Source: Streptomyces triticisoli
Lineage (GTDB): Bacteria > Actinomycetota > Actinomycetes > Streptomycetales > Streptomycetaceae
Direction of reading: 5' to 3'
Assembly (NCBI RefSeq): GCF_003270085.1
Contig: NZ_QFDQ01000177.1
Coordinates: 1 to 64,000, forward strand
DNA length: 64,000 nucleotides
Shown here: positions 1,155-14,881 of the stretch, in pieces
Layout of the letters: every line of letters begins with the position of its first letter
Position numbering within the stretch: the stretch's first letter is position 1
Program-made: the position numbers and the translations under genes
The notes under the pieces: model-generated
Told to the model about the DNA's origin: nothing
The model's database searches: none
The model's input: the letters and a program-made list of their open reading frames with translations, nothing else

Positions 1155-2573
1155 ATGGGTAGGACACTCGCGGAGAAGGTCTGGGACGACCACGTCGTCC
1201 GGCGCGCCGAGGGCGAGCCCGACCTCCTCTTCATCGATCTGCACCTGCTGCACGAGGTGACCAGCCCCCAGGCCTTCGACGGCCTCCGCAAGAGCGGCCG
1301 CACCGTGCGCCGGCTCGACCTGACCATCGCCACCGAGGACCACAACACCCCGACCCTCGACATCGACAAGCCCATCGCCGACCCGGTCTCCCGCGTCCAG
1401 CTGGAGACCCTGCGCAAGAACTGCGCCGACTTCGGCGTCCGGCTGCACCCGCTGGGCGACGTCGAGCAGGGCGTCGTCCACGTGGTCGGTCCCCAGCTGG
1501 GTCTGACCCAGCCGGGCACGACCGTCGTCTGCGGCGACTCGCACACCTCCACGCACGGCGCCTTCGGCGCGCTGGCGTTCGGCATCGGCACCTCCCAGGT
1601 CGAGCACGTGCTGGCCACCCAGACCCTGCCGATGGCCCGCCCGAAGACCATGGCGATCACCGTCGACGGCGAACTGCCCGAGGGCGTCACGGCCAAGGAC
1701 CTGATCCTGGCGATCATCGCGAAGATCGGCACCGGCGGCGGCCAGGGCTACATCCTGGAGTACCGCGGCTCCGCCATCGAGAAGCTCTCGATGGAGGCCC
1801 GCATGACCATCTGCAACATGTCGATCGAGGCCGGCGCCCGCGCGGGCATGATCGCCCCCGACGAGACCACCTTCGAGTACCTCAAGGGCCGCCCGCACGC
1901 CCCCGAGGGCGCCGACTGGGACGCCGCCGTCGCGTACTGGAAGACCCTGCGCACCGACGACGACGCCGTCTTCGACGCCGAGGTCGTCATCGACGCCGCC
2001 GAACTGGCCCCGTTCGTCACCTGGGGCACCAACCCCGGCCAGGGCGCGCCGCTTTCGTCCACCGTCCCCGACCCGGCTTCGTACGAAGACGCTTCGGAGC
2101 GACTGGCCGCCGAAAAGGCCCTGGAGTACATGGGGTTGGAGGCCGGCCAGCCGCTGCGCTCCATCCAGGTGGACACCGTCTTCGTAGGCTCCTGCACCAA
2201 CGGCCGTATCGAGGACCTGCGCGCCGCCGCCGCGCTCCTGAAGGACCGCAAAATCGCCGACGGCGTACGGATGCTGGTCGTCCCCGGCTCCGCGCGCGTG
2301 GGCCTGCAGGCCGTCTCCGAGGGCCTGGACCTGGTCTTCAAGGAGGCCGGCGCCGAGTGGCGGCACGCGGGCTGCTCGATGTGCTTGGGCATGAACCCCG
2401 ACCAGCTCGCCCCCGGTGAGCGCTCCGCCTCCACCTCCAACCGCAACTTCGAGGGCCGGCAGGGCAAGGGCGGCCGCACCCACCTGGTGTCGCCGCCCGT
2501 TGCCGCTGCAACTGCCGTTCTCGGCAGACTGGCCTCTCCGGCCGATCTCTCGGACGCCCCTGCTGGAGTCTGA
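1155..2573 (+). CDS. leuC: 3-isopropylmalate dehydratase large subunit
   Basis: Catalyses 2- to 3-isopropylmalate isomerisation in leucine biosynthesis together with LeuD. The 472-aa product is full length for LeuC. The start ATG at 1155 follows GAAGGGAA and opens with [13 protein letters not shown]. The aconitase-fold [4Fe-4S] cysteine motifs are visible: VGSCTNGR in the C-terminal third and [10 protein letters not shown] about 60 residues later. [19 protein letters not shown] is the conserved substrate-site segment. It is transcribed away from ndgR, and leuD follows after an unusually long 177-nt gap that contains a structured repeat. Expression is probably under NdgR control through the upstream palindrome. 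Confidence 0.97.
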
Positions 2574-2579
2574 GAGATC
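2544..2579 (+). other. Inverted repeat spanning the leuC stop codon
   Basis: An 8-bp perfect inverted repeat (GATCTCTC at 2544-2551, GAGAGATC at 2572-2579) with a 20-nt loop overlaps the leuC stop codon and abuts the GTGA that begins the leuD leader element. It occupies the position where an IscB omega-RNA would carry its guide. It might instead be a remnant of the insertion junction or a weak attenuator. Only the repeat itself is seen. Confidence 0.45.
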
Positions 2580-2746
2580 GTGACTCCACCCACCGCCGAA
2601 ACGGCGGGCTTCCAACCTCAAGGTTGCGGTCCAGCCCGAACCGGCCCCGTAAGGGGCAGAAGCGACACTACCGCGCCGCCTTGCGGCGTGGGGGCGAACG
2701 AAGCAATCCCCCCGGCGGTGGAAGCCGCCGGCCCCTTGGCTAGGAG
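2580..2746 (+). ncRNA. HEARO-like / IscB omega-RNA-like element without iscB, 5' of leuD
   Basis: This structured segment begins at GTGA (2580-2583), then CTCCACCCACCG, and ends in CTAGGAG, four nucleotides before the leuD ATG. Stems visible in order: CCGCCG-aaa-CGGCGG; AACC-tcaa-GGTT followed by GCGGTCCAGCCC; GCCCC-gtaa-GGGGC; CGCCG-cctt-GCGGCG; and CCGGCGG/CCGCCGG just before the 3' end. The CTTCCAAC..GGTTGCG segment and the AGCAATC..hairpin..GGAG 3' end resemble published HEARO/omega-RNA, and HEARO elements are reported to insert next to ATGA or GTGA. In complete elements the iscB gene follows directly; here leuD takes its place. A diverged second copy lies 5' of recG. Family assignment is from memory of the consensus; a covariance-model search would settle it. 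Confidence 0.68.
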
Positions 2747-2750
2747 CCAC

Positions 2751-3344
2751 ATGGAAGCCTTCACCACCCACACCGGCCGGGCCGTCCCGCTGCGCCGCAG
2801 CAACGTCGACACCGACCAGATCATCCCCGCCCACTGGCTCAAGAAGGTCACGCGCGACGGGTTCGAGGACGGGCTGTTCGAGGCCTGGCGCAAGGACCCC
2901 GAGTTCGTGCTCAACCGCCCCGAGCGCCACGGCGCCACGGTCCTGGTCGCCGGCCCCGACTTCGGCACCGGCTCCTCCCGCGAGCACGCCGTCTGGGCAC
3001 TGCAGAACTACGGCTTCAAGGCCGTGATCTCCTCCCGCTTCGCGGACATCTTCCGCGGCAACTCGCTGAAGAACGGCCTGCTCACGGTGGTCCTGGACCA
3101 GAAGACCGTGGACGCGCTGTGGGAGCTCACCGAGCAGGACCCCCAGACCGAGGTGACCGTCGACCTGGTCGCCCGCGAGGTGCGCGCCGAGTCGATCACC
3201 GCCCCCTTCGAGCTGGACGAGAACTCCCGCTGGCGGCTGCTGAACGGGCTGGACGACATCTCCATCACCCTGCAGAACGAGGCCGACATCGCGGCGTACG
3301 AGGCAAAGCGCCCGTCGTTCAAGCCGCGCACCCTGCCGGTCTGA
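2751..3344 (+). CDS. leuD: 3-isopropylmalate dehydratase small subunit
   Basis: Small (swivelling-domain) subunit partnering LeuC in leucine biosynthesis. The product is 197 aa, the normal length. It starts [14 protein letters not shown] and carries [14 protein letters not shown] and the [15 protein letters not shown] segment typical of LeuD. The ATG at 2751 is preceded by AGGAG only four nucleotides away, and that AGGAG is also the 3' end of the HEARO-like element, so translation initiation of leuD may depend on the element. The upstream in-frame extension reads through the structured RNA and is not coding. The long leuC-leuD gap suggests the two genes are not tightly translationally coupled here. 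Confidence 0.96.
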
Positions 3345-14742: not shown

Positions 14743-14868
14743 GTGACTCCACCCACCGCTGAAGCGGCAGGCTTCCAGCCAGGAGGCTGCGGTCCAGCCC
14801 GAACCGGCCCCTTTCGGGGCAGGGGAGAATTGTCACAGGCCGGGGAAGCGATTCCCCCTCGCTAGGAG
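14743..14868 (+). ncRNA. HEARO-like / IscB omega-RNA-like element without iscB, 5' of recG (short form)
   Basis: Second copy of the element found before leuD, in the same orientation relative to its downstream gene. It begins at GTGA (14743-14746) and CTCCACCCACCG and ends CGCTAGGAG just before recG. Stems: CCGC-tgaa-GCGG, AGCC-agga-GGCT followed by GCGGTCCAGCCC, GCCCC-ttt-cGGGGC, and GGGGAA-gcga-TTCCCC. Relative to the leuD copy it lacks two hairpins (about 40 nt) in the 3' half. The second stem shows a compensatory A-T to G-C change versus the leuD copy (AACC/GGTT to AGCC/GGCT), which supports a conserved RNA fold. No iscB follows. Confidence 0.66.
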
Positions 14869-14881
14869 ATTGAAGGATCTC

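Follow-up and report, generated by a model that had tools for sequence, protein, structure and literature searches.

In PMC7290912, insertion by transposons of the IS200/IS605 family is described as occurring on the 3′ side of a defined sequence of four or five nucleotides with no duplication of the target, and PATEs are described as short elements that possess palindromic ends only and are often moved by a transposase acting in trans. For ISDra2, PMC8612924 presents the TnpB reRNA as an RNA derived from the right end of the element, with its guide beyond the transposon end and the TAM at the left end. HEARO/IscB/IsrB systems (RF02033) belong to the same transposon superfamily, and HEARO enzymes are treated in PMC9755519. 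IStrons combine a group I intron with IS605 and limit harm to the host gene by self-splicing, according to PMC3984707.

Here we describe a 171-nt insert between leuC and leuD of Streptomyces triticisoli, which is very probably a non-autonomous IS200/IS605-type element that would be moved by TnpA in trans and tolerated at a start codon by virtue of a built-in Shine-Dalgarno sequence. Like the PATEs described above, it is short, has palindromic ends and uses a fixed target without duplication; unlike them, it keeps a core that resembles a guide-RNA scaffold, and its left end forms a Shine-Dalgarno sequence placed for start codons. Its end sequences are similar to those of Streptomyces TnpB elements. 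In contrast to the published outline of ISDra2, it lacks tnpB in cis, has a TAM-like CCAT instead of TTGAT, and its RNA is predicted only. With HEARO/IscB/IsrB it shares the superfamily and a motif, ATGG, that is found among IsrB TAMs (PMC9581776); it differs in giving no covariance-model match, in lacking iscB and in lying on the opposite strand. Like IStrons it would be an IS605-type element that limits harm to its host gene, although the proposed means is a translation signal rather than splicing. Among the best matches in a limited open-access literature, no report was found of start-codon insertion with a built-in Shine-Dalgarno sequence by IS200/IS605 elements.

A repeat family with exact boundaries and empty sites

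The window analysed is the whole stretch of 64 kb (64,000 nucleotides). Its insert between the leuC stop codon and the leuD ATG opens with GTGACTCC at 2580 and closes with AGGAG-CCAC-ATG. The features of this copy, and the second copy in the window, are as follows.

2560 to 2579, minus strand: putative guide segment (3′ end of leuC) if the minus-strand RNA is a TnpB reRNA; deduced from element orientation
2580 to 2750, minus strand (right end 2580, left end 2750): whole element of 171 nt, very probably non-autonomous IS200/IS605-type; family alignment, site empty in all 29 relatives read, match to model R1
2580 to 2587, minus strand: right-end terminus GGAGTCAC; same in 18 of 18 aligned copies and also at partner TnpB right ends
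2588 to 2609, minus strand: right-end hairpin; sequence and family alignment
2606 to 2643, minus strand: conserved core; family alignment, motif order resembling that at TnpB 3′ ends
2671 to 2690 (approximate limits), no strand assigned: extra hairpin, in the leuD copy alone among the 18 aligned
2712 to 2731, minus strand: left-end hairpin CCGGCGGTGGAAGCCGCCGG; sequence and family alignment
2742 to 2746, plus strand: AGGAG, Shine-Dalgarno sequence from the element's left end, 4 nt 5′ of the leuD ATG
2751 to 2754, plus strand: target ATGG (CCAT on the minus strand), the leuD start codon; empty sites and copy junctions
2751 to 3344, plus strand: leuD (Aconitase_C domain); domain match
14743 to 14872, minus strand: the window's other copy, upstream of recG; BLAST, R1 and the junctions of relatives

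The predicted fold of the insert contains at least five stem-loops, in agreement with the consecutive hairpins noted by a preceding sequence-only reading, and has a free energy of −85.9 kcal/mol compared with a shuffled mean of −73.4 (z −2.83; 2 of 200 shuffles were as good). That reading had let the gap start right after a GTGA and end in an AGGAG four bases before the leuD ATG. The AGGAG was placed correctly, but the GTGA constitutes the insert's own first four bases, and the insert ends at 2750, directly 5′ of the ATG at 2751, rather than at 2746. From its first GTG (2580) onwards the leuD copy contains no stop codon in the leuD frame, and it is one of 12 copies that are open in phase in this way; an N-terminally extended LeuD started upstream at GTG 2580 is possible on paper as a minor alternative.

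BLAST of 2574–2751 located the sequence at five places in its own genome (E<1e-9), namely at leuD, at 14743–14822 5′ of recG, and at C53, C110 and C138. Model R1, built from 18 aligned copies, matched the leuD copy, itself one of those 18, with 103.5 bits over all 156 model positions; in the window it found the leuD and recG copies and no third at E≤10. An exact core pattern occurred at 36 loci, all from Streptomycetaceae by title, in a scan of one genome per species (84,980 species). Among 392 sampled Streptomyces genomes, R1 matched at least 48, with at least 87 census rows, which are lower bounds because at most seven candidates were scored per genome. The copies analysed comprise 61 of these 87 rows, down to E 2e-12, the 26 weaker rows being left out. 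Removal of 20 duplicates from 99 copy loci gave 79 unique copies. The left end could be recognised in 49 of them, and the 30 without one were excluded.

One genome (G395) carries at least seven short copies, seven of which are 90–98% identical to one another over aligned bases. A sub-variant with an extra hairpin of ∼27 nt in the left half (L091, L099) is present at two or more sites of a single genome.

A leuD-like match was found in 60 of 61 relatives searched, and 30 loci were fetched, one of them from our own genome. In all 29 others leuC and leuD are joined by a few bases (for example GGAGTCTGAGAATCATGG) and there is no insert; excising 2580–2750 from the own genome restores GGAGTCTGAGAGATCATGG. 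Because it belongs to a multi-copy family and the same place is empty in 29 of 29 relatives read, the insert is beyond chance, and the gap is indeed no ordinary spacer, as had been claimed, but a mobile insert.

For recG a match was present in 36 of 41 genomes, and one of the 25 loci fetched was again our own. The junction was legible in 22 of the 24 other relatives, all without the insert and 21 with an ATG, typically GTGGTGTGCAATGGATCTC; in the remaining two the start does not align. The recG copy is flanked by GTGTGCA and AAGGATCTC. Because the old recG ATG now reads AAG, the likely recG start is an in-frame TTG (14870–14872), formed by the element's last three bases. A further copy (L096) lies inside a gene, which from a protein motif we take to be 3-hydroxyacyl-CoA-dehydrogenase-like, and joining its flanks restores an open frame through ..IDTAMTLGYRHP.. 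/ ..EAIDTAMTLGYRHPMG... The clean empty sites at leuD, recG and L096 therefore place insertion exactly 5′ of ATGG, without target duplication. Of the 42 classified copies 40 have ATGG and two ATGA, and a fixed short target without duplication is what a PATE-like, non-autonomous IS200/IS605 element would have.

Transposon ends, partner elements and the omega-RNA reading

Read on the minus strand, the element shows an IS200/IS605-type layout: CCAT is followed by CAGTCTCCTAGCGAGGGG-hairpin at the left end, and GGAAGCCC-hairpin-GGAGTCAC closes the right end. As in PATE-like elements, the ends are defined, hairpins are subterminal, and neither transposase nor nuclease is present in cis. A TnpA+TnpB element of genome G395 (L251/L294; domains Y1_Tnp, OrfB_IS605 and Cas12f1-like_TNB) qualifies as a partner. 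Its left end, after CCAT, is identical to the family consensus at 44/53 positions, and its right end reads GGAAGCCC..GTGGAGTCAC; the family thus has ends in common with a TnpA-bearing element (L294). The earlier reading was right to the extent that the insert is mobile and comes from the superfamily of transposons in which OMEGA guide RNAs are found. The left ends of two other TnpB elements, L297 and L298, match at 44/53 and 43/53 positions, likewise after CCAT. The start of one gene (MELGFLSP..) bears a short element in one genome (L147) and the TnpB element L298 in another, by either parallel insertion or internal deletion.

In our own genome, the TnpB of L054 is 79% identical over 390 aa to that of L251/L294, with a left end matching at 35/53 positions. 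The partner elements of this genome look damaged: L054 has no TnpA match alongside, and the TnpB at C249 is in two pieces. By eye, an apparent remnant of a TnpA C-terminus precedes TnpB in L054.

Of the element-bearing genomes examined, 10 of 12 gave TnpA matches and 8 of 10 gave TnpB matches. Two genomes, G253 and G128, hold copies (five and three census rows, three and one of them weak) but no TnpA or TnpB match; either their copies are stranded relics or the partner was lost. When the 99 copy loci were searched by tblastn with 10 TnpB stretches (two partial), one TnpA and five IscB proteins, no TnpA, TnpB or IscB was found beside the short elements, the one TnpB-like hit (L078) lying ∼3.3 kb off. 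At the locus described here the element is followed by leuD, and the earlier statement that no nuclease is encoded in cis was correct.

The sequence-only reading had interpreted the insert as an orphan HEARO/IscB omega-RNA. Such an RNA would lie on the plus strand and would have its guide in leuC and ATGG as its 3′ TAM. Two of its segments, CTTCCAAC..GTTGCG and AGCAATC-hairpin-GGAG, are presumably reminiscent of IscB scaffolds. The TAMs published for IsrB (NTGA, NTG and NTGG; PMC9581776) also include ATGG. However, the HEARO covariance model, whose use had been proposed together with an iscB search of the genome, gave no match at E≤10 on 2400–2900, none in the own genome and none at E≤1 on four other copy loci (L137, L138, L173 and L139), whereas it detected all 10 Streptomyces IscB loci given as positive controls, out of 30 fetched, with E values from 5e-7 to 1.6e-12 and scores that all stayed under the gathering threshold. 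No Rfam family reached its gathering score anywhere in the window. IscB was likewise absent above cut-off from the own genome, which showed only five short partial matches near profile positions 180–242. In the 392-genome sample 42 genomes bear IscB at E≤1e-15 (40 over cut-off); it occurs in seven of the 48 element-bearing genomes compared with about five expected, and IscB presence does not track the element. The ends and the partner are of TnpA/TnpB type, the ends matching when read on the opposite strand. We rejected the omega-RNA identity on these grounds and consider it extremely unlikely. The earlier reading had named a missing covariance-model hit together with an absence of similar copies elsewhere in Streptomyces as evidence against itself; the hit is missing, yet copies are present in many other places in the genus.

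Start codons and a Shine-Dalgarno sequence in the left end

In 47 of the 49 unique copies whose left end could be recognised, an ATG lies within 3 nt of that end, and in 46 it is exactly adjacent. The two exceptions are recG (TTG) and L154, where we read GTGGGACTGACCATCGGC.. as the GTG start of a glucokinase-like protein. Since an ATG at the left end follows from the target, the real test is whether this ATG starts a gene. According to codon usage, in a model trained on this window alone, the best coding frame was in phase with the adjoining ATG in 39 of 46 testable copies (two of the 39 with a negative score), and seven were out of phase with a gene. In-phase coding also follows 121 of the 333 ATGG sites in the window, mostly at internal methionines (104 internal-Met-like), so only the start-like class discriminates: by a single criterion, 25 of 42 classified copies were start-like compared with 17 of the 333 window sites. 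The rest of the 47 copies were in phase but at a possible internal methionine (nine), unclear (four), other (four) or too short (five). There are 39 distinct N-termini among the 47 copies, and some copies must therefore share one inherited insertion. Seven loci (L076, L081, L151, L157, L160, L161 and L187) appear to share one insertion 5′ of a sugar ABC ATPase gene, seemingly inherited across several species; here the sequence has decayed and the Shine-Dalgarno-like word is retained.

Domains were sought in 17 distinct downstream products, 14 of them from the 47 copies and the others (L080, L089 and L097) from copies with a left end below threshold. Matches were obtained to biotin synthase (bioB), sugar ABC ATPase, aminotransferase class V, phytoene-desaturase-like, enoyl-CoA hydratase, ROK family, EF-G-like, release-factor-like family, GFO/IDH/MocA oxidoreductase, DSBA-like, DUF3686 and Nuo51-type proteins, and in the below-threshold set to adenosine deaminase, PTS enzyme I and ROK glucokinase. 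The L073 product had no match in either library (Pfam, NCBIfam) and the L094 product none in NCBIfam. The genes behind the copies are unrelated and have no common theme.

These data bear on the possibility that the insert is a domesticated cis-regulatory leader of leuD, either riboswitch-like or an attenuator. A stable structured leader does stand directly 5′ of leuD, bioB has one too, and the insertion apparently common to the seven sugar ABC ATPase loci indicates that long-term retention occurs. Against this, the downstream genes lack a common theme, the leuD insert is missing from 29 of 29 relatives read, and no Rfam family was found at gathering score. We regard such a leader as very improbable, and the earlier suggestion of a cis-acting regulator specific to leuD is unsupported, the same leader standing 5′ of unrelated genes.

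The insert does now supply the Shine-Dalgarno sequence of leuD, as had been suggested, in the form of the AGGAG in its left end 4 nt before the ATG. A Shine-Dalgarno-like word occurs within the last 16 nt in 44 of the 47 copies with a left end and ATG, and the mean anti-Shine-Dalgarno pairing energy is −9.3 kcal/mol compared with −5.9 after shuffling. At leuD the pairing (−7.2) barely exceeds that computed for empty relatives (−6.7 to −7.1), and the recG site shows no gain (−7.6 versus −8.3). Given this nil or slight gain at the two sites, our claim is one of rescue, not gain, of translation. We also considered the AGGAG as the host's own Shine-Dalgarno sequence serving as the target; this was rejected as the boundary is ATGG and AGGAG is also present in copies away from gene starts (L144, L180 and L188).

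In the mechanism that we favour for a non-autonomous IS200/IS605-type element, TnpA from TnpA/TnpB elements with matching ends would act in trans and excise the element as single-stranded DNA. It would then join the element 3′ of CCAT on one strand, a position that directly precedes ATGG on the complementary strand. The reverse complement of the left end (..CTAGGAGACTG) would provide a new, well-spaced Shine-Dalgarno sequence replacing the displaced one. Insertion at a start codon would be tolerable because the left end's reverse complement carries this signal; translation would continue and the insertion would survive selection.

In TnpB loci (own and fetched, by reading) an ATG directly follows the left end in 20 of 31, 19 of these being ATGA; only ATGs after a Shine-Dalgarno-like word were included, so that its presence in those 20 is by construction. 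For 15 of the 20, the ATG leads into an in-phase coding frame; one of these 15 (L054) lies inside a gene. A typical junction is cctcggaggcaactg/ATGAAG, the slash marking the element boundary. Among L050, L051 and the TnpB loci within L192–L217, several full elements stand directly 5′ of ATGA starts and have GGAGG/AAGGAG-like words in their left ends. The L054 element of our own genome (G000:C23) interrupts an apparent sugar-binding protein gene at an internal ATGA. By eye, four of the 30 IscB loci (L108, L113, L114 and L119) show a hairpin after iscB and then a close ATGA, possibly the same start-codon strategy.

The conserved core and the biology of the family

On the minus strand the core reads GGGCTGGACC..GGAAGCCC, an order similar to that at the 3′ end of TnpB elements; partner TnpB elements likewise have GGGCTGG, then GGAAGCCC, then GGAGTCAC at their 3′ ends, which is what a TnpB guide RNA would lead one to expect. 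In 25 copies without the scan pattern the core is 0.91 identical to the consensus, whereas the middle reaches 0.72 and the right-end hairpin 0.77; the core value is biased upward because recognition and orientation of the copies depended in part on the core. Core base pairs are invariant in the 18-copy alignment. GGGCT (2606–2610) with AGCCC (2633–2637) and CGGT (2627–2630) with ACCG (2640–2643) could form a candidate pseudoknot around the CCAACC..GGTTGCGG hairpin. A strand call from G·T versus A·C pairs (205 versus 87, favouring minus) was discarded as uninformative, since shuffled hairpins show the same bias. On 11 TnpB and 30 IscB loci R1 gave weak matches only, the best TnpB match being 27.6 bits at L051; L054 scored 18.7 and 12.3 bits. 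Neither R1 on the TnpB loci nor tblastn on the 99 copy loci turned up a TnpB element having the exact core. The resemblance of the core to a TnpB guide-RNA scaffold is suggestive only, and its RNA function putative.

The IS200/IS605 interpretation may be extended by a reRNA acting in trans. The minus-strand RNA would associate with TnpB made elsewhere, which would cut empty sites and thereby retain the element. The core conservation (0.90–0.91 versus 0.71–0.72 in the middle and 0.77 in the right-end hairpin, with the bias noted), the shared order of 3′ motifs and the occurrence of TnpB in 8 of 10 element-bearing genomes examined are consistent with this extension. On the other hand, the core might serve TnpA only, these searches did not reveal its exact sequence in any TnpB element, and the element-bearing genomes G253 and G128 are without TnpB. 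We judge this role to have somewhat less than an even chance of being real. More tentatively, and on balance doubtfully, the family may consist of mobile guide-RNA elements homing to start codons, each with a portable Shine-Dalgarno leader and a guide newly acquired from the gene alongside, and served by TnpA and TnpB in trans for movement and retention. Full TnpB elements, and perhaps IscB elements, would then follow the same start-codon strategy, and the TAM may be the start codon itself.

Aiming at the start codon and bringing a ribosome-binding site would be a simple way for an insertion sequence to persist at biosynthetic and housekeeping genes, and it links a short transposon motif (ATGG/ATGA) to start codons. 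Such elements are predicted to rewrite 5′ leaders across Streptomyces. Their many natural copies, several with clean empty sites, offer material for TnpB and TnpA biology in high-GC bacteria.
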